A stretch of 12,128 nucleotides of DNA from Planctomycetota bacterium. GTDB taxonomy: Bacteria; Planctomycetota; Phycisphaerae; UBA1845. The stretch covers positions 1 through 12,128 of the forward strand of contig JADFIX010000033.1 in assembly GCA_022566435.1 (NCBI GenBank), written 5' to 3'. Below the pieces are notes generated by a model. The model made no database searches and had not been told where the DNA came from. It worked only from the letters and a program-made list of their open reading frames with translations. Shown piece after piece: positions 1 through 11,818 of the stretch (position 1 is the first letter of the stretch; every line of letters begins with the position of its first letter). The position numbers and the translations under genes were made by a program.

Positions 1-1326
1 GCGTCGGGCAAGGGCAAGGATGAGCTGGTGAAGCTTCGGAGGCAGGCGAATGAGATCGATGGATCGGATAGTCCTTACAAGGCGATCGTATCGGTAATGA
101 TGCTCAAGGAAGGCTGGGATGTGAAGAACGTCACGACCATCGTCGGCCTGCGTGCCTATGCGGCTAAGAGCAACATCTTGCCGGAGCAGACCCTTGGTCG
201 CGGTCTGCGAAAAATGTATCCGGGCGGTATGGAGGAGCAAGTTAGCGTGGTCGGTACTGATGCGTTCATGGAGTTCGTCGAGTCGATCCAACGCGAGGGC
301 GTGGAGCTTGAACGCAAGGCGATGGGCGAAGGGACTAAGCCCAAGGCGCCGTTGGTCGTTGAGGTTGATAACGAGAACGAAAAGAAGGACATCGACGCAC
401 TGGACATTGAAATTCCCTTGCTGACGCCCCGGATCTACCGGGACTACAAGAATCTCGCCGATTTGAACGTGTGTGCGATGGGGCATCAGCGCGTGATGTA
501 TCAGCAATTCACCGAAGAACAGCAGCGGGAGATCGTCTTCAAGGACATTACGACCGGCGAAGTGACGCACACGACGATTCTCGACACGGCCGGCGTTGCC
601 GATTACCGCGGCGTGATCGGTTTTTTTGCCAAGACGATGATGAAAGACCTTCGGCTTGTTGGCGGCTACGACGTGCTGTATGGCAAGGTCAAGGCTTTCG
701 TCCAGAACGATCTGTTCGACCGGGTAGTGGACCTGGAGCATCCCAACACGCTTCGCAACCTATCCGAACTCGCCGCGACCAAGACCCTGCTTGAATCTTT
801 CAAGAAGGTGATCAACGCCTTGACCGTGCAGGATAGGGGCGACGCTGAAATACGGGACACCATCAAGCTGCGTCAGACTCGCCCGTTTGTTACCAAGGAT
901 CAGGAGTATCTTGTCCCGAAGAAAAGTGTCTTCAATCGCATCATCGGTGACAGCCATCTGGAGCTTCGCTTTGCGAGCTTTTTGGAAGAGTGCAGCGATG
1001 TTGTGTCCTACGCCAAGAATTACATGGCGGTGCATTTCAAGCTGGATTATGTTAACGCGGACGGCAACATCTCGAACTACTACCCCGACTTTCTCGTCAA
1101 GCTGACGGACGGCCGGATTGTCGTCGTCGAAACCAAGGGGCAGCAAGACCTGGATGTACCTCCGAAGATGGAACGTTTGCGGCAGTGGTGCGAGGACATC
1201 AACCGAATTCAAGCGGATGCGACCTACGATTTCGTCTACGTGGACGAAAAGAGCTTCGATAAGTACGAACCCAAATCGTTCAAGGAGTTGCTCGACGGGT
1301 TCAGGGACTACAAGGACGAGTGTTGA
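1..1326 (+). CDS. Type III-like restriction enzyme R (Res) subunit, C-terminal part (5' end outside the window)
   Basis: The reading frame is open from base 1, so this is the last 441 residues of a larger protein; Res-type helicases are usually around 900 residues. Counting from base 1, a motif V-like segment (LKEGWDV, about residues 34-40) is followed by motif VI Q63-x3-R67-x2-R70 (QTLGRGLR) of the superfamily 2 helicase core. The end carries a PD-(D/E)XK nuclease signature: YPDF with D363, then VVVETKG with E377 and K379, preceded by a possible upstream Glu in HLELRF. Family knowledge: type III R subunits couple ATP-driven translocation on DNA to cleavage, working with a Mod methyltransferase. 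Any mod gene would lie upstream and cannot be seen, so a Mod-independent restriction-like helicase is also possible. The gene heads a same-strand run of nuclease genes. Confidence 0.9.
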   Translation, partial: ASGKGKDELVKLRRQANEIDGSDSPYKAIVSVMMLKEGWDVKNVTTIVGLRAYAAKSNILPEQTLGRGLRKMYPGGMEEQVSVVGTDAFMEFVESIQREGVELERKAMGEGTKPKAPLVVEVDNENEKKDIDALDIEIPLLTPRIYRDYKNLADLNVCAMGHQRVMYQQFTEEQQREIVFKDITTGEVTHTTILDTAGVADYRGVIGFFAKTMMKDLRLVGGYDVLYGKVKAFVQNDLFDRVVDLEHPNTLRNLSELAATKTLLESFKKVINALTVQDRGDAEIRDTIKLRQTRPFVTKDQEYLVPKKSVFNRIIGDSHLELRFASFLEECSDVVSYAKNYMAVHFKLDYVNADGNISNYYPDFLVKLTDGRIVVVETKGQQDLDVPPKMERLRQWCEDINRIQADATYDFVYVDEKSFDKYEPKSFKELLDGFRDYKDEC

Positions 1327-1392
1327 TTGCTACGGTTCGCTGCGCCACCGCCCGATGCGCATGGCAACCGAAGCAGAATAGCGAGGTAACAA

Positions 1393-1602
1393 GTGAAGGA
1401 GCCGTTGAGGAGCGAGAAACACGAGGAGGCACGAAAGAGAGTGCCCGATGAACTAAAGGGTGTCTTCGACGAGTTCGTAGAACACTACAAGCTCGCAGCG
1501 ACCAAACACCATGGCTCGCCGTTCATCTCATATGTGGTCTTGGCCGACATGGTCAACCTTGGGTGGCGATGCACAGGAGCTTCGTCGGAGAGAAAAGAGT
1601 GA
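1393..1602 (+). CDS. Small conserved-looking protein, 69 aa, unknown function
   Basis: This short gene sits 66 bases after the res stop and starts at GTG 1393, with GAGG at 1383-1386 six bases upstream and an in-frame stop (TAA 1387-1389) just before it, so no longer start is possible. The product is charged and mostly helical in appearance, with a KRVPDELKGVFDEFVEHY helix-like segment and a SPFISYVVLADMVNLGWR end. I recognise no domain. Its stop overlaps the likely GTG start of the next gene (GTGA at 1599-1602), so it is probably translationally coupled to the HEPN gene. The position between a restriction helicase and a HEPN RNase suggests an accessory role in that system, but this is inference from context only. 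Confidence 0.65.
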   Translation: MKEPLRSEKHEEARKRVPDELKGVFDEFVEHYKLAATKHHGSPFISYVVLADMVNLGWRCTGASSERKE

Positions 1603-2837
1603 CTCGTCGATCCGTAGCAATCGGGCGGGTTGGGCGGTCACCAACGACGATGACGAATGATACGCGCGACAACTTTATTCTTCATTCGATCTTGCCAGCC
1701 ATGCCGATCCGCGAACCCATCACCTGTGCAGATGTTGTGTTCTGCACAACCCAACACCTGGATCAGTATTCAATAACTCCTGCGGAGGATCAAACAACTC
1801 TGGCAACGCTAGCTTCAAAATGCCGCGATGCCCACGGAAATACTCTCGATCGTGTTGGCGTCGTGCTTGTCCCGGAACCAAGTGCCGACGCCCTGATCCC
1901 CGAAGGAATCCCGCGAATCTGCCGAGATGTTGTGGCCCTGTGCCACATCACGGGCGGAACAGCACTGAATTGTAATCATGGGCAGGGCACGACTGTGTAT
2001 AACGCTGATTACTTCGAGTCGCTTCCCATCCGGTTTGGCAAGAACGGTTTTGTGATCCAACGTCCGGGGCTACTCAGCCTCAACTCGGGGTGCGATCATC
2101 TGTTTCCCACGCTTCCGGTGTATCTCTCTTCGCCTCGGGATAGGGATTTTCAGCTAGACAAGCGATTGTTCGAGGCGTGCGATAAGGCAGTGTGTTTTTT
2201 CGTGCAGAAGCGCCATCGGCGCGAATTGCGTCAACTGTTTCGAGCAATCGCTTTGACCATGCACGCCACACGAATCATGCCCGAAACTGAATCGACGTAC
2301 CACGACCTTGGGCCAAGGATCATTAGCTGGGTATCGGCCTTCGAAACGCTTGTTCATCCGGGGCGAGGACAGGTTAGCATACAAAATGTGATCCAACTCA
2401 TAAAACGAATACCGTGGCACGACGACCGACCCCCAGGTCGCGGCGGTCAACGCCGCCGTGAAATGTCGTTGAACGAGCAGAGATACATCGTGAAGGATCG
2501 GCATGGGCGTGTGGTCGGCCGGGAAAACGGCGCTTGCCGATTGTACCGCCAGCTCTACAAACTCCGAAACGATGTCGCACACGGAAATGTAATCCGCCCC
2601 AACGAATTCGCGGCGCATCCGAGCGTCAACCGAGGGGCGCGGATCGACCAGATCGCACCGCTTCTGTTTCGCGGCTGCATTCTGGAACGACTTCGGGAAT
2701 TAGGGGTTCTGCCGAGGACTCCGCAGACTGAATCTTGGACCCTTGCTCAGTTCCAGGCATCGGTTGGCGAGTCGCTCGACGCTTATAATTTCGATGGAGC
2801 GCTCGCCAAAGCGCTGTTCGGTCGGGACAACGATTAG
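1599..2837 (+). CDS. HEPN-domain protein (Apea-like HEPN), probable RNase
   Basis: The C-terminal third has the pattern of Apea-like HEPN proteins: a W-x-SAFE-x-L helix (WVSAFETLVHP), a linker, then YKLRNDVAHG. The last contains R323-N324-x3-H328, the R-x4-H motif that forms the RNase active site in HEPN toxins and defence proteins. The N-terminal ~200 residues show no domain I recognise. I place the start at GTG 1599 because GGAG (1587-1590) lies eight bases upstream and the codon overlaps the previous stop as GTGA. That gives 412 residues; an upstream GTG (1563) and a downstream ATG (1650) are alternatives. HEPN RNases in anti-phage loci typically cleave tRNA or mRNA on activation. What would activate this one is not visible; the next-door nucleases or the 69-aa protein are candidates. 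Confidence 0.8.
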   Translation: MTRRSVAIGRVGRSPTTMTNDTRDNFILHSILPAMPIREPITCADVVFCTTQHLDQYSITPAEDQTTLATLASKCRDAHGNTLDRVGVVLVPEPSADALIPEGIPRICRDVVALCHITGGTALNCNHGQGTTVYNADYFESLPIRFGKNGFVIQRPGLLSLNSGCDHLFPTLPVYLSSPRDRDFQLDKRLFEACDKAVCFFVQKRHRRELRQLFRAIALTMHATRIMPETESTYHDLGPRIISWVSAFETLVHPGRGQVSIQNVIQLIKRIPWHDDRPPGRGGQRRREMSLNEQRYIVKDRHGRVVGRENGACRLYRQLYKLRNDVAHGNVIRPNEFAAHPSVNRGARIDQIAPLLFRGCILERLRELGVLPRTPQTESWTLAQFQASVGESLDAYNFDGALAKALFGRDND

Positions 2838-2867
2838 AGGCAATCAAGATGAGGACGGGCAGGTATT

Positions 2868-3566
2868 ATGGCTAAGGCTCGACCACTCGTAGGCGGATTC
2901 CTTGAACGCATTTCGGTCACGGCATTCGAGAAATACCACCGCGAAATCACCGATCTGGTTCGATCTCAGCACGGCGTGTACGCGCTATACAAGAACGACC
3001 GCCTCTACTATGTCGGCCTCGCGGTCAATCTTCGTCGCCGTATCAAGCAGCACCTGCGTGACAAACACGCGGGCCGATGGAACCGCTTTAGCCTTTACCT
3101 CGTACGCAAAGTCGATCACATCAAGGAGATCGAGTCTTTGCTGCTGCGCATTGCAGACCCAGCGGGTAACAAACAGGGTGGGCGGCTCCGCAAAGCAACG
3201 AATCTCGACCGCCAATTGCGCCGCAAGATGCAGAAGCGTCAGAAGGAAGAGCTTGACGAAATCTTCGCCAAGGATGCGGGTCCACAGCGGGCAGTATCCA
3301 AAGCCGCTCGTAGTCGGAAGGTCAAGCGAAAGAAGGCAGGCCGAGGCGATCGAGTGGATCGCCCGTTGAAGGGCCTAGTTGGCGCAGGCAAGAGAATCTA
3401 CGCCACTTACAAGGGCAAGGAATTCAAGGCGATTGTCTACCGCAATGGCCGGATCAAGTTCAACGGACAGTTGTACGACAGCCCGTCCGCAGCAGGAAAG
3501 TCGGTGCAAAAACGCGAGACGAACGGCTGGTCGTTCTGGCGCGTGCGCAAAGATGGCGGCTGGTGA
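2868..3566 (+). CDS. GIY-YIG nuclease fused to a C-terminal RAMA/DUF4357-like domain
   Basis: The GIY-YIG domain occupies roughly residues 34-105: GVY (36-38), YYVG (47-50), NLRRR with the conserved Arg at about 56, E89 in KEIESLLLRI as the likely metal-binding Glu, and N101 in GNKQ. The key positions thus look intact, predicting a metal-dependent DNA nuclease. A very basic linker (about 135-165) follows. Residues about 168-228 form a small domain with G-x-LYDSPSAAG and NGWSFWRV, the signature shared by RAMA and DUF4357 domains, which occur in restriction-modification proteins and are proposed to recognise DNA or its modification state. ATG 2868 starts 30 bases after the HEPN stop, with AGG close upstream (2861-2863) and GAGGA (2851-2855) further off. 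A modification-sensing or partner nuclease role in the cluster is inference. Confidence 0.85.
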   Translation: MAKARPLVGGFLERISVTAFEKYHREITDLVRSQHGVYALYKNDRLYYVGLAVNLRRRIKQHLRDKHAGRWNRFSLYLVRKVDHIKEIESLLLRIADPAGNKQGGRLRKATNLDRQLRRKMQKRQKEELDEIFAKDAGPQRAVSKAARSRKVKRKKAGRGDRVDRPLKGLVGAGKRIYATYKGKEFKAIVYRNGRIKFNGQLYDSPSAAGKSVQKRETNGWSFWRVRKDGGW

Positions 3567-3715
3567 AGCTCAGCGAGTTGCGGAAGTAGGCCCCACTGAG
3601 AACGGGCCGTTGACATTTCCGGCATTAGATGGCGGAGACTGCGGCGAGTGTAGCGATGCCTCCGCGTTCGGCAGATGGCGAAAGCGCCAACCGAGGCCGA
3701 GGCAGGAGCGGTATA

Positions 3716-4387
3716 GTGGAAGATCAGAACGAGGCATGGAACTGTTTGGAATGGCGTGAACCATTCGCCGAATTCGCCCGCGAGCTTCGGATTCGCTTGG
3801 CCGCCGACACGCACACGACCGAAGACACCATCCGCTACTACTTCTGGAACGCCCTCGTGAAATCCGGCGCGGACGCGCACACGCTGGTGCCCGAAATGCC
3901 TCATCCGAACCCAGCCATGAAGGGAAAAGAGGTCGACCTTCGACTCGACGCCAAACCCTTCGGCCCGGCCTGGCTGGAAGTGAAATACAACCGAGGTCTG
4001 CCGAGCAAGCGAAACCTACCGCGCACGCAGGTGTACGGCGCGCTTCTGACGGATTTCTTCAAACTTGCTCTGATCGAAGACGGCGATCCGAAACTCGTCC
4101 TCTACGTTTCGACTCCAGAGATGGTGCGGCATCTCAAAAACAACGCTGGCGGCTTACTCGAATCGACTGACCGACCATTTGTATTGAGCCCGGAGGACTT
4201 CGACGATCTCCCCGCATCCGCCCGCAATACCGTACTGAAAAAGGTCGTTTTCGAAGACGCACCGCCGCAAATCGCCGCCACCGTTCTCGCACAAGAGTCG
4301 ATTGCTGATCACGAGGCGTTTCTTTTTGAAGTTCGACATGACTCCACGCACAAGGCAGGATCAAGCGATGAACGAAAAGGACGCTGA
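3716..4387 (+). CDS. PD-(D/E)XK nuclease-like protein, 223 aa
   Basis: The N-terminal half reads as a PD-(D/E)XK nuclease core: a helix with E36 (TTEDTIRYYFWNALV), E60 (LVPEMPHP), D74 in GKEVDLRL, and E88-V-K90 in AWLEVKYN. This is the usual Asp then Glu-x-Lys spacing on consecutive strands. A later segment (PKLVLYVSTPEMVRHL) looks like a core strand and helix. GTG 3716 is chosen because AGGAG (3704-3708) lies seven bases upstream. An ATG at 3629 would add 29 residues of low-complexity, Gly/Arg/Ala-rich sequence and has no ribosome site. The gene starts 149 bases after the GIY-YIG gene. It could cut DNA or be a nuclease-fold DNA-binding protein. No helicase or methylase domain is attached, so it probably acts with other cluster proteins; the substrate is unknown. 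Confidence 0.7.
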   Translation: MEDQNEAWNCLEWREPFAEFARELRIRLAADTHTTEDTIRYYFWNALVKSGADAHTLVPEMPHPNPAMKGKEVDLRLDAKPFGPAWLEVKYNRGLPSKRNLPRTQVYGALLTDFFKLALIEDGDPKLVLYVSTPEMVRHLKNNAGGLLESTDRPFVLSPEDFDDLPASARNTVLKKVVFEDAPPQIAATVLAQESIADHEAFLFEVRHDSTHKAGSSDERKGR

Positions 4388-4550
4388 CACGTGGCTGGAC
4401 TCGCCGGCGCCTGTCGGGTACGTGAATCTGGAGCGTATCCGAGAAAATCACATCGCTCCTGCCAACACAAACGCGATCGACGCACTGATGGCCCTTACGC
4501 CAGCGGGTGTGCAGCGAACGCTACGCATACAGGGATCACCACCGGAGTAG
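4368..4550 (+). CDS. Small protein, 60 aa, unknown function
   Basis: ATG 4368 is preceded by AGGA (4357-4360) at seven bases and overlaps the last 20 bases of the PD-(D/E)XK gene in another frame, so the two are probably translationally coupled. The frame is also open upstream (starts at 4338 or 4302), but those would overlap further and lack a good ribosome site. The product is acidic at its start (NEKDADTWLDS), then VGYVNLERIREN, an Ala/Asn-rich stretch and LTPAGVQRTLRIQG. It has no cysteines, membrane segment or recognisable domain. It might be a small regulator, antitoxin-like partner or nuclease inhibitor; nothing in the sequence decides this. Confidence 0.5.
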   Translation: MNEKDADTWLDSPAPVGYVNLERIRENHIAPANTNAIDALMALTPAGVQRTLRIQGSPPE

Positions 4551-4559
4551 CATTCAGCA

Positions 4560-5744
4560 ATGGCATGTGAAACAAATGTCGGCCGACTTCGTGAATCCGT
4601 ATTGAAGGCGTTGCGACGGTACGGCCACGCTACGAACGCCTTGCGCGAGTGCCAGTCGGATAGCCCCGATCTAGAAAAGAAGTGTTCTGAATGGGAAACG
4701 GCGCGCGGGAGTATGGAAGATCTCATCAGCAATCGGTCACCCAAAAGACTTCGTGACGCCCTTCGGGGTGGATCCGACGAGATACGAGACGCCTGGGTGT
4801 TGAAGTTTAGGAGCCGGAATCCCGAAGAATTCAGTCTTTGGGTCCCGCCGATGGAGTTCGTCGATAACGAGACAGACAAGGGGGATGCAATTACGCACAG
4901 GGTTCGAGTGTGCCGGCACGTGTCCCACTACCTCAAAATTCACGAATGGCAACCAGAATGGCCGGATGTTGAATCCGCGACCGGCAAGGCTGAAACTGTT
5001 TTCGATGAGCTTACGCATCTCGGCATTGACGACCTTACGCCAACGGTTGATGAAGTGAAGAAAATCGTAATAGAGCTGATAACTAGCGCTGAATCGGGCC
5101 TGCGGCGCCAAGCCGATTCTTCCTCCGGCGTTTCCCGCAAGCTACTCGTGGCACATGCACCGTTTGCCCCTCCCCGAGGGTTCCCCGTTGGTAGCCTCAA
5201 GGACAGAGTCTTCGAAATCGAACCAGCGGCGGATCAAGGCGCGATTGACGCGGCATGCGATGAGCTTGAGCGCGACGGGGTCATACAGCAGGAAAAATCG
5301 GAGTTCTCGAACATCTTAACGAAAGAACGGATCAAAGAAAAGCGTTGGTGCCTTGCGAAACCGGCAAGCACAACTGCGCCGACCGACACGCCGGAACGGT
5401 CAGACACCCACGTCCCAGCGGCATTCTCAGCTGACAAACCACAGTCGGAGAGCGGTTTAGAGAAACTCGCGACAATTCCGGCTCTTCCACCTGAAAAAGT
5501 GGGCTGGGTGTCGCAAGTCGTTGCAGCTCGGTCGCTGATCGAGGAGACTCGAAACAGCAAAGAAGACACCAAGGCTGGTAGTCGAAAGGTCGGTGCACTC
5601 AAGAAGGCGCGCACGCGAGGGATCCACGACAAGGGGGCAACAGCTGGCATCGACAAAGACGGACATATCTGGCGCCAGGATCCCGACGACAAGAAAACGG
5701 TCTGGTATCTGGAATCCACGGTGGACAAGAAGAACAAGCGATAG
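4560..5744 (+). CDS. Uncharacterised 394-aa protein with a possible internal winged helix
   Basis: ATG 4560 follows nine bases after the previous stop, with GGAG at 4544-4547 (12 bases away, long spacing). I do not recognise the family. The N-terminal ~80 residues are charged and helical in appearance, possibly coiled coil. Around residues 210-265, a segment resembling a winged helix (GAIDAACDELERDGVIQ ... KRWCLA) has the helix-helix-wing pattern of small DNA-binding domains. Then comes a Thr/Ser/Pro/Asp-rich linker (about 266-305) and a basic stretch (about 335-355). The C-terminus has an aromatic segment, GIDKDGHIWRQD followed by KKTVWYLEST. The gene ends the compact cargo run and is followed by a 202-base non-coding gap, so it is probably the last gene of that transcription unit. 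A DNA-binding or sensor role is a guess. Confidence 0.65.
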   Translation: MACETNVGRLRESVLKALRRYGHATNALRECQSDSPDLEKKCSEWETARGSMEDLISNRSPKRLRDALRGGSDEIRDAWVLKFRSRNPEEFSLWVPPMEFVDNETDKGDAITHRVRVCRHVSHYLKIHEWQPEWPDVESATGKAETVFDELTHLGIDDLTPTVDEVKKIVIELITSAESGLRRQADSSSGVSRKLLVAHAPFAPPRGFPVGSLKDRVFEIEPAADQGAIDAACDELERDGVIQQEKSEFSNILTKERIKEKRWCLAKPASTTAPTDTPERSDTHVPAAFSADKPQSESGLEKLATIPALPPEKVGWVSQVVAARSLIEETRNSKEDTKAGSRKVGALKKARTRGIHDKGATAGIDKDGHIWRQDPDDKKTVWYLESTVDKKNKR

Positions 5745-5946
5745 TAGCGACGATTGACCGGGACAGTCACGTCGTGACAGTTGAGAATCCTGACAAAGTT
5801 TTAATCCATCTAACGCCTCCAAGAACGCACTTTCACCGGGACATCAGAGGGACAACTCAGAGCTGATTCGGGAGCCCGAGCCGTCGTAAGTGCGCCCGTC
5901 GTGTATAGTCCAACGAACGCGGAACACCTTTTGGAGGTCGACAACT
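5745..5946. other. Intergenic gap between cargo cluster and element-maintenance module
   Basis: This 202-base stretch shows no ORF of its own that I trust. It contains a perfect 13-base palindrome at 5766-5778 (GTCACG-T-CGTGAC), a short inverted repeat TCGGG-AG-CCCGA at 5868-5879, and a TATAGT box at 5904-5909 that could be the -10 of a promoter for the downstream HTH gene, though I find no convincing -35. A strong ribosome site (GGAGG 5933-5937) ends the gap. It is the natural boundary between two transcription units, and the palindrome is a possible operator. I see no T-rich intrinsic terminator. Confidence 0.4.
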
Positions 5947-6159
5947 ATGACCATGCTCACCGTCGGCGATGTTGCAAGACGGCTTAAGATTTCAAGAGCA
6001 AGAGTGGCCTACGCCGTAGAGAAATTCGGCGTACAGGAACGCACTCGAGCCGGGATTCTTCGCCTATTCTCAGAAGATCAACTCCCGGTCATCGAGGCGG
6101 CGATCAGGACGGTTCGGCACCGGCAGCGATCAACTATTGAAGCCAAACATGGTGACTAA
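5947..6159 (+). CDS. Small HTH DNA-binding protein (MerR/excisionase-like), 70 aa
   Basis: The first half, LTVGDVARRLKISRARVAYAVEKFGV, matches the helix-turn-helix of MerR-type and excisionase (Xis/HTH_17) proteins: a 'T-V-x-D-V-A-x-x-L' first helix and a recognition helix. It is followed by a short wing-like stretch (RAGILRLFSEDQL) and a final helix. ATG 5947 is preceded by GGAGG (5933-5937) at nine bases, an excellent site; a longer start at 5890 has none. Within an integrative element such proteins act as excision directionality factors or transcription regulators. It lies upstream of the replication-type ATPase and may control that unit. No effector domain follows the HTH. Confidence 0.7.
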   Translation: MTMLTVGDVARRLKISRARVAYAVEKFGVQERTRAGILRLFSEDQLPVIEAAIRTVRHRQRSTIEAKHGD

Positions 6160-6307: not shown

Positions 6308-6365
6308 TCCGAGCCCTGTTGTATCGAGAGATCGCGCCAATCTCCGAGGTATTACACAAGAAGTT

Positions 6366-6393
6366 GCGGGGTGTCTCTGGCAAGACACCCCGC
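6366..6393 (+). terminator. Strong perfect hairpin in a gene leader (terminator or attenuator-like, no U-tract)
   Basis: Bases 6366-6376 (GCGGGGTGTCT) and 6383-6393 (AGACACCCCGC) are exact inverted complements of 11 bp around a six-base loop CTGGCA. The stem is GC-rich and would be very stable. It is followed by an A-rich run, not T residues, so it is not a classic intrinsic terminator on the + strand, and the - strand side has only a weak T content. It lies 23 bases before the ATG at 6417, so it is positioned as an attenuator, an mRNA-stabilising stem, or a DNA-level protein-binding site for the downstream ATPase unit. Confidence 0.55.
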
Positions 6394-6416
6394 ACAACGA
6401 AAGAAAGAGATACTCA

Positions 6417-6839
6417 ATGTCATTCTATCGAGATAGCTCGAGCCCGCAAGTCAACATTCTTCCGTCGTGCAATTTGCACGGCTGTCGGTTCGTCGAAGAT
6501 TTCCCGAACGGCTGCCCGCTCGCGGCGGCCAATCCGCTGAGCGCCGTACACGAATTACAGGAGCTTGGATACCAGCTTTTCTTGAATTCCGAACCGGCCA
6601 GCATGGTGTTTCATCGGTACGATACGTGCAATTCCTGCGTCCGCCGCCTCTTGTCGCACCCCATTGTCCGACAGCTTCGACATGATCTGGCCGAAGTACG
6701 CGACCGCGCAAGCGCGGATGTGCCTACTGGCGTTGCCCAATCTCCAGAACGTGCAAACGTCGCTGGGACCGCTAATGGCCGCGTTCGAATCCCTCTCTCG
6801 TTATACGCCAGGCATCGCAGGAGGCCCAAGAATGATTGA
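6417..6839 (+). CDS. Cysteine-containing small protein, possible zinc finger, 140 aa
   Basis: ATG 6417 begins 23 bases after the strong hairpin; a purine-rich AAAGAGA lies just upstream as a weak ribosome site. The N-terminal half holds cysteines at 18, 23, 33, 71 and 74, arranged as CNLHGC, NGCP and CNSC, with nearby histidines (21, 45, 66). That suggests a metal-binding fold, but I cannot assign a family. The C-terminal third is rich in Arg and ends ARHRRRPKND, suggesting nucleic-acid contact or disorder. The stop overlaps the start of the ATPase gene by eight bases (6832-6839), typical of coupled translation, so this is probably an accessory protein of the ATPase. A 15-base palindrome lies in its coding start. 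Confidence 0.55.
   Translation: MSFYRDSSSPQVNILPSCNLHGCRFVEDFPNGCPLAAANPLSAVHELQELGYQLFLNSEPASMVFHRYDTCNSCVRRLLSHPIVRQLRHDLAEVRDRASADVPTGVAQSPERANVAGTANGRVRIPLSLYARHRRRPKND
6466..6480. repeat. 15-base perfect palindrome with GTGCA core
   Basis: CGTGCAA (6466-6472), a central T, and TTGCACG (6474-6480) form an exact inverted repeat inside the coding start of the cysteine protein, about 50 bases after its ATG. It could be an operator for one of the element's HTH proteins. Similar GTGCA palindromes occur past the end of the ATPase gene (8414-8518). The coding constraint PSCNLHGC may also explain it. Confidence 0.35.
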
Positions 6840-8484
6840 CCAGTTGCCATTCTCAATCAGCGCTACACTGGCTGAACGAAGCCTCGCGAGGTTTGAAGCG
6901 TCCGTGGACGGCGAGGTTCTCGCGATAGAGCGGTATGCTCCTGGCGACGGCGACAAGCGACGCAGGGTAGCTAGGGTGTGGTCGCAAGATTCCAGGCTGA
7001 GAAACGGCACGCCCATACCTCCCGAAAAGATCGGTCGCGAATTGGAGCGCGTCGAGCTGGAGGCGATTGCCGCCTTCGAAAAGCTGTTCGGCGAACCCCG
7101 CGAGTCAACGCGGCTTGTCGAATGCGCTAACTACCGAGACGATTCGATCAACGTCGAGCTTGCCTGGAACTCCCGAACGGAGCGCGCAGACTTCATCGTA
7201 TCCGACCGAAGGACGGGCGAAATAACGCGAGCCTCAGATGTACCAACGACTTCCGGGAACTTGGTCGTTCCGCGGATCTGCGAAGGCCTTGTGACGCCCG
7301 GCGGCGGTGTTGACGGCGCGGTGCTTCTTCCAACCGAATGCGATCCGGCAGGTAAATACTCGGACAGCCTTCGCGAAGACCTCCGGAAGTTCATCAACAG
7401 GTACGTCGAATTGCCCGGCGAGGCGTGCTCCATTGCTATCGAATACATCCTTCTCACGTGGGTATACGACAGCTTTGATGAAGTTCCGTATCTTGCATTT
7501 CGCACGGCGGACGCCGGTCGCGGGAAATCGAGGGCTTTGGAGACTGTCGGAGCCCTTTGCTGTCGCGCGCTATTCGTCGGTGGCGGCAGCTCACCGGCTG
7601 CCACGTTGCGGATGCTAGATGTCTTCCGAGGCACGTTGGTCGCTGATGAATTCGACCAAAACGTCAAGACCGATCTTGGCGCAGAACTCAACCGCATTCT
7701 TAATCAGGGATTTCAGAACCGGCGTCCACTCGTGAAGTGCGATGGTGAAGACAACACTCCGAGGGCGTTTCGATGCTTCGGCCCCAAGATATTTGCATTG
7801 CGAAAGCGCCTGGGCGACGACGCCACCGAGAGTCGGACGATAAGTGTGTGGATGCAACAGAGAACGCGGCCGGATATTCCACTTAGCTTGCCAAGAACTG
7901 AGTTCGACAGACAAGCCCTTGTGCTTCGGAATCAGTTGCTCGCGTTCCGGTTTGCGAATTGCCGAAGGCTTACGACTGACCTGTCGCTGGCTGACCCCCG
8001 CCTTGAAGATCGCATGAATCAGATAGGATTACCGCTGCTTGCTGTGGCACAATCTCCCGACGTTCGAGGCGCGATCGTTTCTGCGCTTCTCGAACAACAG
8101 GGCTCAATCGCAGCCGATCGATCGGACTCGCTTCCTGGGGAAGTGTTCGAATCGTTGCGCAATCTCTTCCAGCCCGGAGATCAAGTGCGCGCCGGTGCCA
8201 TAGCGGCGGAGATTAACAGGAAGCGTGCAGAGGCAAATGGGGTCGAAGTAGAAAAGCTCAAGTTCTCGATTTCGAGCCATCGTGTAGGTCGAATCCTGGC
8301 TCACGAGCTTGAGCTGAAACGCGAAGACAGAGACGCGAAGGGAATTCCTTACCGGCTCGACCCACGGAGGTTTGACCAATTGTTGCGACGATTCGACCCG
8401 CCGACTGTGGAAAGTGCACAAAATGCACATGTGCATGATTCGGGTTCGGCTGCGGATGAAAAACCGGGCTCTTCGGCGTTCTAG
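6832..8484 (+). CDS. P-loop ATPase, phage/plasmid replication helicase-like, 550 aa
   Basis: ATG 6832 has a near-perfect AGGAGG (6819-6824) seven bases upstream and overlaps the previous gene by eight bases. The central ATPase region shows a Walker A variant, TADAGRGKSR (G229-x-G-K232-S233), the SPAATLR segment (254-260) and Walker B GTLVADEFD (D272, E273). A downstream FGPKIFALRKRL then ESRT with R335 fits a sensor and arginine-finger region. This order matches the superfamily 3/DUF3631-type helicase domains of mobile-element replication proteins, where the usual Walker A is Gly-x-Gly-Lys-Thr/Ser. The N-terminal ~170 residues and the C-terminal ~200 (ending in a possible winged helix with VGRILAHELELKR) are unassigned. 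No primase motif is evident. Inferred role: replication or maintenance of the excised element. Confidence 0.7.
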   Translation: MIDQLPFSISATLAERSLARFEASVDGEVLAIERYAPGDGDKRRRVARVWSQDSRLRNGTPIPPEKIGRELERVELEAIAAFEKLFGEPRESTRLVECANYRDDSINVELAWNSRTERADFIVSDRRTGEITRASDVPTTSGNLVVPRICEGLVTPGGGVDGAVLLPTECDPAGKYSDSLREDLRKFINRYVELPGEACSIAIEYILLTWVYDSFDEVPYLAFRTADAGRGKSRALETVGALCCRALFVGGGSSPAATLRMLDVFRGTLVADEFDQNVKTDLGAELNRILNQGFQNRRPLVKCDGEDNTPRAFRCFGPKIFALRKRLGDDATESRTISVWMQQRTRPDIPLSLPRTEFDRQALVLRNQLLAFRFANCRRLTTDLSLADPRLEDRMNQIGLPLLAVAQSPDVRGAIVSALLEQQGSIAADRSDSLPGEVFESLRNLFQPGDQVRAGAIAAEINRKRAEANGVEVEKLKFSISSHRVGRILAHELELKREDRDAKGIPYRLDPRRFDQLLRRFDPPTVESAQNAHVHDSGSAADEKPGSSAF

Positions 8485-8530: not shown

Positions 8531-8845
8531 GTGGGCAGTGTGTCACCCGAAAATGTGCGACACGTCGACGATCCGGGCCTAAATGGTCAGCGCGGTCCGG
8601 CATGGACGGGCAGCGTAATGCTACCTGGTGATCCGCCAGAGCCGTGCCCCGAACTCCTTACGGAGAGTGAGGCGATTCGATACCTTCGGTTAGACACCGT
8701 CAATATCGCCAATCCGGGCGACACTCTGACGCGCTATCGCGAGATGGGCCTCCTCAAGGCAACCCAGGTCAGCAAGCGGCTTTTTTACCGCAGGATTGAG
8801 CTTGACAGGTTCCTCGAACGCCTCACGAATGAGAATCCGCGGTGA
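8531..8845 (+). CDS. Excisionase-like HTH protein, 104 aa
   Basis: Residues about 42-100 (LLTESEAIRYLRLD ... LTRYREMGLLKATQVSKRLFYRRIELDRFLERL) match HTH_17/excisionase-type DNA-binding domains: a first helix, a recognition helix with 'YREMGLLKA', and the 'Y-R-R-x-E-L-D-x-F-L' wing and final helix. GTG 8531 has GGAG (8520-8523) seven bases upstream. A later ATG at 8619 would still keep the whole domain but has no clear site. The first ~40 residues are Pro/Gly-rich and probably disordered. Position between the replication ATPase and the integrase supports a role as recombination directionality factor or as a regulator. The palindrome cluster directly upstream is a possible binding target. Confidence 0.65.
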   Translation: MGSVSPENVRHVDDPGLNGQRGPAWTGSVMLPGDPPEPCPELLTESEAIRYLRLDTVNIANPGDTLTRYREMGLLKATQVSKRLFYRRIELDRFLERLTNENPR

Positions 8846-8877: not shown

Positions 8878-9108
8878 GTGGCAAAACGAAGTGTCCCAAT
8901 TAGCGATCAACTCCGAGCGGCTATCCGCGATTGCGGTAGCACAATCTATCGCGTGAGCAAGGATTGCGGGATTGCCGAATCGCAACTCCACAACTTCGTC
9001 AACGGCAAGTGCGGCGTAGGCTTGCAGAATCTGGACAGGCTGTGCGAATACGTCGGACTTGAGTTGCGATCCGCGAAACGACCACCAAAGAAGCGAAAAA
9101 AGGGTTGA
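8878..9108 (+). CDS. XRE-type HTH regulator, 76 aa
   Basis: The protein reads ISDQLRAAIRDCGSTIYRVS, KDCGIAESQLHNFVNGK and GLQNLDRLCEYVGLEL, the typical five-helix XRE/Cro-CI fold: a first helix, the turn-recognition pair (CGIAESQLHNFVNGK), then the 'L-x-x-L-D-x-L-x-x-x-L-G-L' ending. It finishes in a basic tail (RPPKKRKKG). The GTG 8878 start has no strong ribosome site. Its stop (9106-9108) lies within the -35 box of the integrase promoter, and an inverted repeat covers the -10 of that promoter. The simplest inference is a local repressor of the integrase. Confidence 0.75.
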   Translation: MAKRSVPISDQLRAAIRDCGSTIYRVSKDCGIAESQLHNFVNGKCGVGLQNLDRLCEYVGLELRSAKRPPKKRKKG

Positions 9109-9175: not shown

Positions 9176-10464
<1,289 letters not shown>

Positions 10465-10545: not shown

Positions 10546-10574
10546 AGTATACCACATGCCCAAGAGTGGGCCAA
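10546..10574 (-). promoter_or_regulatory. Possible promoter of tRNA-Gly, overlapping the start of the second recombinase gene
   Basis: On the - strand, TTGGCC (10574-10569) and TATACT (10551-10546) are 17 bases apart, and TGG before TATACT makes an extended -10. Transcription would start about 75 bases before the tRNA 5' end. The boxes cover the ATG and ribosome site of the recombinase gene on the + strand, so expression of the two would interfere. The -35 matches only three of six consensus bases. Confidence 0.4.
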
Positions 10575-11818
10575 ACAAACGGAAACGAGTGCCCAAGCTT
10601 TCCTTCACTACGAATGACGGAATCGGCTGGCATGTCTCGTTTCGCGACCCAAAGACCGGCTCACCGACCCGGCACCGCTTCAACATCCGCGAGAAAGACC
10701 GTGAACCCGAAGCCCGTGTTGCCTACCACCGCTGGCTTGCCGAGTTCCTCGATGACGGACGACCAACGCAACAGCTTCGGCGTACGACAGGAGAGACTCT
10801 TTCAAAACTCCGTTCTTCGAAGCTCGCCCCCCAGAAAACCGTCGTACAAGGAAGCATCGTCCACGTTGCTTCAGGTTTCTTGTCCAGTCTCGAAGCCCGA
10901 GTGCGTCGTCCCGGTGAACCTCGAAGGCAAGGTTCTATCGCCAAGGCAGTTTATGAAGACCGACGAAAACACGTTCGTGATTTCCTCGACTATCTCAATA
11001 CTCGGCACGGCGAGCGAACGACATCCCGCATGATGATTACAGACCTCGCAATGGCAGACGTCGAAGGCTTCAACCAGTGGGCTGTAGGTGAGAGATACTC
11101 GTCGTCGCAGGTCAACAAGCGGATGCAGATGGTGAAGGGCATCATCAACCGTGCTGGACGCCCCGAGCACGGTGGGCAGTTTCTTTCGTGGAACTGGGAC
11201 TCTCGCGATGTGGTTCACGGAAAACCAAGCAAGGCGAGAACGCTCCCTACACGCGAGCAACTTCGCCATATGCTCGCAGCATGCGAAGTCCGCGAACGCA
11301 CCATGATATGGATGGCCATTGGACTCGGCTTTGGCCAGCAAGACCTTGCCAATGTTCGTGTCGGTCAAATCGACCAGGAAGACTACGACCTCAGACGCAG
11401 CAAAACTGGCATCGAGCGGTTTGGCGTTACACCGCCACTTGTGTGGGCACACGTCAAGGCTTATCTAGCTGCAAACACCAGGAAGCCTGGAGACCTATTC
11501 TTCGTTACACGTCGTGGCTACCCGCTTGTTCACGGTAGCATCGATGCCGTGACGCAGTGGTGGTCCAAACTCAGGACCGCCATCGGAGAGACGAAGGAAT
11601 CTCTCGATGGCTTTTACACGCTCCGTCATCTTGGTGCGACCGATTTCGGCTCCCGTCCATCTTGCTCAATCAGCGACATGCGTCGATGGCTCGGGCATGG
11701 TGCCAGTTCTCGGGTTGCGGACATATACATGCGGCCCATCGGTCCGGAGTATCGAGAAGTCGTCAGATGGGTACGGAAACGACTTGCATCAAAGAACTTC
11801 CTGGAGCGGTCGAAGTAG
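10556..11818 (+). CDS. Divergent tyrosine recombinase-family protein, 420 aa
   Basis: ATG 10556 has GGAG (10544-10547) eight bases upstream. The C-terminal half follows the tyrosine-recombinase plan: a GLGFGQQDLANVRVGQID segment (257-273) where catalytic Arg I normally sits, RSKTG (K283) as the beta-hairpin Lys, FYTLRHLGATDF (R357), RRWLGHG (H381), and a possible nucleophile Y391 (VADIYMRP). Arg I appears replaced (around Q261) and the box II His is Tyr354, so catalysis may be altered; the 'GFGxxD' form recalls planctomycete recombinases. The N-terminal ~130 residues are basic, with a SAM-like segment near 130-205. It sits on the 5' side of the tRNA, opposite the integrase, so it may belong to flanking DNA or a second element. 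Confidence 0.8.
   Translation: MPKSGPNKRKRVPKLSFTTNDGIGWHVSFRDPKTGSPTRHRFNIREKDREPEARVAYHRWLAEFLDDGRPTQQLRRTTGETLSKLRSSKLAPQKTVVQGSIVHVASGFLSSLEARVRRPGEPRRQGSIAKAVYEDRRKHVRDFLDYLNTRHGERTTSRMMITDLAMADVEGFNQWAVGERYSSSQVNKRMQMVKGIINRAGRPEHGGQFLSWNWDSRDVVHGKPSKARTLPTREQLRHMLAACEVRERTMIWMAIGLGFGQQDLANVRVGQIDQEDYDLRRSKTGIERFGVTPPLVWAHVKAYLAANTRKPGDLFFVTRRGYPLVHGSIDAVTQWWSKLRTAIGETKESLDGFYTLRHLGATDFGSRPSCSISDMRRWLGHGASSRVADIYMRPIGPEYREVVRWVRKRLASKNFLERSK

Follow-up and report, generated by a model that had tools for sequence, protein, structure and literature searches.

A nuclease gene array in a planctomycete contig as probable defence cargo of an integrative element at a tRNA-Gly gene

Do the nuclease genes packed together at the start of a short planctomycete contig work as a single defence system, or are they neighbours that act separately? 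The contig, C2, is 12,128 bases long and was analysed whole (it is called the window below); it comes from a 64%-complete, probably phycisphaeral genome of 4.97 Mb in 939 contigs. A sequence-only reading had described its positions 1-5744 as seven same-strand genes, among them a restriction helicase-nuclease (Res), a HEPN-type protein, a GIY-YIG nuclease fused to a RAMA domain and a stand-alone PD-(D/E)XK protein, which might be one composite system or several side by side. We estimate at roughly three in four the probability that the window covers the right-hand portion of an integrative element at a tRNA-Gly gene, with several independent defence units as cargo. The cargo side of this reading is supported by the absence of a second array gene wherever we found homologues of one, from the nearest Res relatives being accompanied only by a methyltransferase gene, and from the position of a PD-(D/E)XK homologue beside a DrmD gene. 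The element side is supported by a small helix-turn-helix (HTH) gene that comes after a shared domain gene at three of four places, from the different cargo of a related element and from an integrase frame that ends in the tRNA gene. The arrangement looks to be of a familiar kind, though the HEPN and PD-(D/E)XK families in it are poorly described.

The evidence on the first point comes from the neighbourhoods of homologues. We compared the window proteins by single-sequence tblastn (E 1e-3) with 70 fetched loci from outside the window that had been chosen for holding one gene of the array; many of them overlap or span 2-4 kb, and several places span only 2-6 kb. Between them they give 27 distinct places at which one cargo gene is matched (11 for the GIY-YIG-RAMA protein, 10 for the HEPN-type protein, 3 for Res, 1 for a 69-amino-acid protein and 2 for the PD-(D/E)XK protein), about 22 of which are wider-flank stretches or plasmid regions of 2.9 to 21 kb. 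A second member of this set of five was detected at 0/27 places by this search, which remote relatives escape. The HEPN homologues occurred without the other array genes in 10 records. The same separation is seen at the level of whole genomes among 150 relatives, where the two other genomes with a HEPN homologue (G029 and G065) lack long GIY-YIG-RAMA matches, G065 having only a short GIY-YIG match in a longer frame. The homologues were therefore apart at 27/27 places, and a single composite system was rejected on this count; the option of several systems side by side fits their separate occurrence.

Res (positions 1..1326, + strand) is cut by the contig end, so that just its C-terminal 441 amino acids are visible, the end of a helicase followed by a PD-(D/E)XK nuclease. 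For this C-terminal half the identification as a restriction helicase-nuclease holds well: it resembles type III R subunits (PADLOC REase_III, 2e-17) and bears the nuclease motif PDF...ETK from residue 362, with Pfam RE_endonuc at 22.5 bits, slightly under its cut-off of 23.4. A PDB sequence search gave a best E of 0.75. When we searched 72,556 plasmids by tblastn, 60 records matched, the top two being rhizobial and the other 58 below 60% identity. The first is Aminobacter pANY103c, where WP_286299876.1 matches the 437 visible residues of Res with 82% identity (77.5% at the DNA level over 1,281 aligned bases) and its gene overlaps by one base that of a site-specific DNA methyltransferase, WP_286299875.1 (PADLOC MTase_III). 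The second is an S. medicae plasmid open reading frame (ORF), 79% identical over the same length, in an unannotated record with an ORF resembling the methyltransferase gene immediately before res. Within 10 kb of res, these two 21-kb regions hold none of the other window genes, so that the type III restriction-modification (R-M) unit of pANY103c differs from the window in having no HEPN, GIY-YIG-RAMA or PD-(D/E)XK homologue nearby. The window in turn shows Res only: the contig begins inside res and the expected mod position lies beyond its end. The cognate Mod did not turn up in the 64%-complete assembly either: the four partial matches there are 41-43% identical and lie in frames no longer than 321 amino acids. 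Such close relatives of Res on rhizobial plasmids suggest that the R-M unit may have moved between phyla.

The 69-amino-acid protein (1393..1602, + strand) is found in 2/150 relatives including the window's own and gave no match on plasmids. The only relative found, in G144 (51% over 51 amino acids), has its gene 19 bases after that of a type IIG enzyme (REase_MTase_IIG), which is itself preceded by an HKD+Snf2-like helicase gene, and the window protein is possibly an accessory of the type III R-M unit.

The fusion of GIY-YIG with RAMA, at 2868..3566 (+ strand), was read correctly from the sequence: PF01541 (29.6 bits) and PF18755, the RAMA family (53.5 bits), are both above cut-off, DUF2924 is marginally so, and PADLOC assigns the protein to PDC-S14 (8.9e-21). 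The GIY-YIG residues G(V/I)Y, YVG, R, E and N are conserved in 6/6 aligned sequences. The protein is predicted to be an endonuclease that cuts modified DNA in the manner of type IV enzymes. PMC11037411 names GIY-YIG-RAMA fusions as possible N6-methyladenine (6mA)-dependent enzymes, and PMC11719660 lists PDC-S14 as a candidate defence system; the window protein has both domains in the identical order and differs in standing next to a type III R-M gene. Homologues were found in 26/150 relatives, the window's own included, with many matches short or partial. Six larger loci (G092, G121, G066, G053, G148 and G026, the last with a partial copy) contain no other array gene. An integrase gene and type I genes for methyltransferase and specificity subunits lie near the GIY-YIG-RAMA gene in G066, and in G121 it is accompanied by an HKD+Snf2 match and by a type IIG/DrmMI-like gene; in G092 the neighbours resemble, by eye, trpA and DUF1801. 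The single neighbours scanned in G092, G053 and G148 had no PADLOC match, the neighbours of G026 not having been scanned.

The HEPN-type protein (1650..2837, + strand) has 395 amino acids, a mixed N-terminal domain and a C-terminal HEPN-like domain. Its R-x4-H motif (R306 and H311 in P0001 numbering), already pointed out from the sequence, is invariant in 26/26 aligned rows, that is 25 database proteins and the window's; the search had returned 26 database matches, one being the window's own. The nearest homologues, 69-78% identical, are on metagenome contigs, the 75%-identical P0001 on one of 63.8 kb. Besides G029, a relative in the same family with its copy on contig C39, and G065, a phylum search gave at least one further genome, whose locus has no tblastn match to window proteins (phylum searches covered 392 genomes each with few candidates scored per genome, hence their counts are lower bounds). 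No confident Pfam or PADLOC family was obtained and Foldseek with the predicted model returned nothing informative. The protein thus differs from HEPN RNases such as Csm6 and LsoA and from Apea-like HEPN (PF18739) in matching no Pfam or PADLOC family with confidence and in having its own N-terminal domain, and it represents a poorly described HEPN-like family of planctomycetes and plasmids of Hyphomicrobiales. The G065 homologue (52% identity) is broken by an internal stop and has a ParA-like gene, named by eye, nearby. Small, mutually similar genes of DUF1801-like appearance adjoin the HEPN gene in G029 and the GIY-YIG-RAMA gene in G092.

The PD-(D/E)XK-motif protein (3716..4387, + strand) has 223 amino acids. 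Its start is probably the GTG at 3716, as in the 223-residue database form; a longer ORF from the ATG at 3629 has no support. Five database matches, itself included, were found, and D74 and E88-x-K90 (P0027 numbering) are in register in 6/6 aligned sequences. The earlier assignment stands as far as the D and E-x-K residues go and could not be extended to the fold: an AlphaFold model built from 5 sequences reached a pLDDT (predicted local distance difference test) of 45.5 and was not usable. Neither Pfam nor PADLOC gave a confident family, PDB sequence searches gave best E values of 0.68 (query A2, this protein) and 0.057 (another query, A3), and viral contigs searched with A2 yielded 58 pattern matches, 0 of them confirmed. 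The protein is present in 1/150 relatives (the window's own only) and in at least 2/392 genomes of the phylum including its own. A distant homologue in G168 keeps TTED, HP, D and E-x-KY, and its gene lies a short way upstream of one for a DrmD helicase (514 bits); a Thermococcus plasmid has a partial match (32%, E 1e-3) near a gene annotated as a type I restriction endonuclease. This family too is poorly described, with a distant member adjoining a DISARM-type helicase gene.

Close packing had been taken as a sign of co-expression. The + strand ORFs of positions 1-5744 are all present in our ORF scan, and six of the seven proposed genes are supported; the seventh, a 60-amino-acid ORF at 4368, has no matches. 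The two overlaps that had been cited find little support. The one at 1599-1602 requires a GTG start for the HEPN gene, and the aligned start of its homologues is the ATG at 1650, which leaves a 47-base gap after the 69-amino-acid gene; a start further upstream, at GTG 1599 or 1563, is possible but without support. The one at 4368-4387 has the 60-amino-acid ORF as partner. This ORF (4368..4550, + strand) is doubtful as a gene, being part of an 82-amino-acid ORF at 4302-4550 that matched none of the fetched loci by tblastn and no family of Pfam or PADLOC, the large database not having been searched with it. Gaps from Res to the 69-amino-acid, HEPN and GIY-YIG-RAMA genes are 66, 47 and 30 bases, and co-transcription of this stretch is possible. 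Promoter-like sites (3 against a shuffle mean of 3.9) and terminator-like sites (10 against 12.5) do not exceed shuffles. The named genes of the window are all on the + strand as far as 10453, so that co-direction does not mark out the array.

The last gene of the array was rejected as one of its members, since it recurs with genes of mobile elements. It codes for a 394-amino-acid protein (4560..5744, + strand) whose C-terminal domain, spanning roughly residues 296-392, recurs at the end of other proteins, among them one on contig C286 of the same genome and others in G029, G031 and G044. Database searches gave four matches including itself, and among the 150 relatives there were 6 other places, 4 of them detected by the last hundred residues and 2 by the front part. 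A single contig of 19,351 bases is listed for the protein clusters of both this protein and the PD-(D/E)XK protein. Directly downstream in the window is a small HTH protein (5890..6159, + strand; MerR-like by a weak Pfam match only), and a homologue of it follows on the same strand at 3/4 places with the C-terminal domain (C286, G029 and G031; not G044). At the front-part places (G080 and G018) tblastn gave no match to the small HTH protein. With a profile of the domain we recovered 12 places in 11/200 genomes, and the HTH gene is at 8/12, or 7/11 without the window. Further downstream, the stronger loci have a DnaB helicase gene (L057), a DUF3854/DUF5906 gene (L060), a primase and an integrase (L062) or a DEAD-box helicase and an integrase (L061); in L058 and L059 no helicase, primase or integrase gene was recognised downstream. 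The 394-amino-acid protein seems, from its recurring domain and neighbours, to belong to the backbone of a mobile element. The window's own genome carries a second copy of this backbone, on C286 (L057), with the DnaB-type helicase gene. G029 has the HEPN homologue (C39) and the backbone pair (C271) on two separate short contigs.

Following the small HTH gene there is a 606-amino-acid protein (6664..8484, + strand), possibly a P-loop ATPase. It has no Pfam or PADLOC match; its putative P-loop was read by eye, and helicase or primase genes lie near the equivalent position in L057, L060 and L062. Two small HTH proteins, perhaps an excisionase and a regulator, come next (8531-8845 and 8878-9108, + strand; HTH_17 below cut-off, HTH_26 above cut-off). 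Then comes a tyrosine recombinase, the integrase (9176..10453, + strand; PF00589 1.2e-14, PF13102 1.4e-6), whose frame terminates within an antisense tRNA-Gly (CCC) gene (10393..10464, - strand), abutting its 3' end. This tRNA gene is the likely attachment site. A 33%-identical integrase in G011 likewise terminates inside a tRNA, there tRNA-Lys. Just past the tRNA-Gly gene there is a second tyrosine-recombinase-like gene (10556-11818; PF00589 below cut-off), which may belong to an adjacent element or to an older one at this tRNA.

In G009 (L062 and L066) a related element has the order integrase, primase, small HTH, domain protein, PDC-S01, HerA, SIR2, type III methyltransferase, then a Res-like gene that scores 34 bits for REase_III and passes the cut-off of Pfam ResIII. 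Its domain match is weak by tblastn (E 0.004) and strong only with a profile that includes G009 itself.

Several observations weigh against an integrative element with independent cargo. G009 is the sole related element with recognised defence cargo; G031 and G047 have none that we recognised by eye, and L057, L060 and L061 end at contig ends. The pairing of domain and HTH genes is looser than the first counts suggest: 7/11 is partly circular, 6/7 of those loci being in the profiles, only 1 (G055) of 4 new places has the HTH gene, and 4/11 non-window domain places are without it in the stretch examined. Conversely, only 7 of 13 non-window small-HTH matches have the domain upstream, the weak ones being mostly without; no domain was detected by tblastn beside the matches in G073, G144 and G011 or in the short loci L054 and L056. 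An integrase is present in just 2 (L061 and L062) of the six stronger loci. A search for attL, a repeat of the tRNA 3' end (21 bases, at most 2 mismatches), found none in the 64%-complete draft, and as the left end is off the contig, the left boundary of the element is unproven. Finally, the 27 places leave out the closest HEPN homologues, those on metagenome contigs.

Under the element reading, the backbone would comprise the 394-amino-acid modular protein, the small HTH protein, the possible ATPase or replication gene, the further HTH genes and the tyrosine integrase next to the tRNA gene. A cargo bay, placed upstream of this backbone, would hold the type III R-M, HEPN-type, GIY-YIG-RAMA and PD-(D/E)XK genes as separate units. 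To judge from their families, Mod (presumed to be off the contig) would mark host DNA and Res would cut DNA without the mark; the GIY-YIG-RAMA protein would cut DNA bearing a base modification read by RAMA, for which 6mA is the published suggestion; the HEPN-type protein would cleave RNA and so stop infected cells; and the PD-(D/E)XK protein would cut DNA, each unit acting alone. Tn7-like transposons with defence cargo (PMC8649781) are alike in joining a mobile backbone to varying defence cargo. They differ in that the window element has a tyrosine integrase and a tRNA site, and that its backbone pair was seen in planctomycete relatives and little searched outside them. Searching with this pair may help to locate more defence cargo.

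How the cargo genes relate to each other could be seen otherwise. The R-M and GIY-YIG-RAMA genes could form a loose pair of R-M and type IV type, one directed at unmodified and the other at modified DNA, with HEPN and PD-(D/E)XK as passengers, an arrangement compatible with the element reading. GIY-YIG-RAMA genes do have R-M-type neighbours in three cases, a type III gene in the window, type I genes in G066 and a type IIG/DrmMI-like gene in G121, and the 6mA dependence suggested for such fusions in PMC11037411 would suit the pair. However, 4/6 other larger loci have no recognised R-M gene (as judged from single neighbours in three and none in G026), and a 6mA reader beside an adenine methyltransferase would risk cutting its own host unless the contexts differ; we regard the pair as rather doubtful. 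A tighter union, one operon in which the Res of a type III R-M system guards a HEPN toxin in the manner of PrrC and the GIY-YIG-RAMA and PD-(D/E)XK proteins are further effectors, agrees with the single strand, with gaps of just 30-66 bases between the genes from Res to GIY-YIG-RAMA and with the R-M-type genes near GIY-YIG-RAMA at 2/6 other larger loci. HEPN genes linked to R-M systems are moreover a published theme, with at least 16 such clades in PMC3710099, and HEPN and R-M may be partners here as a pair, though no conserved pair of this kind was seen at the 27 places. Against the full operon, two of the five genes were together at 0/27 places, the nearest Res relatives are without the others, the cited overlaps are not borne out by homologues, and the 394-amino-acid gene goes with mobile-element genes; it is unlikely in our view.

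A layered variant, very unlikely to our mind, would have Res restrain HEPN in a PrrC-like way while the GIY-YIG-RAMA protein destroys adenine-methylated phage DNA; if it were true, phages escaping by modification would be cut and those blocking R-M would trigger RNA cleavage. That the cargo genes are decayed leftovers of an island that no longer provides defence could be argued from the incomplete Res and from the internal stop of the G065 HEPN homologue, but Res is truncated by the contig end alone and the window ORFs are open with their motifs kept, so we hold this extremely unlikely. Reading the locus as an integrative element with separate cargo units corrects the tempting view of the nuclease array as a composite system, and draws attention to two poorly described families, HEPN-like and PD-(D/E)XK, together with the backbone. 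In the library searched, we found no paper joining Planctomycetota, type III restriction and HEPN, nor one combining type III restriction, HEPN, SIR2 and HerA. The longest stem of the terminator scan was a 13-pair inverted repeat at 6365-6394, upstream of the 606-amino-acid gene.

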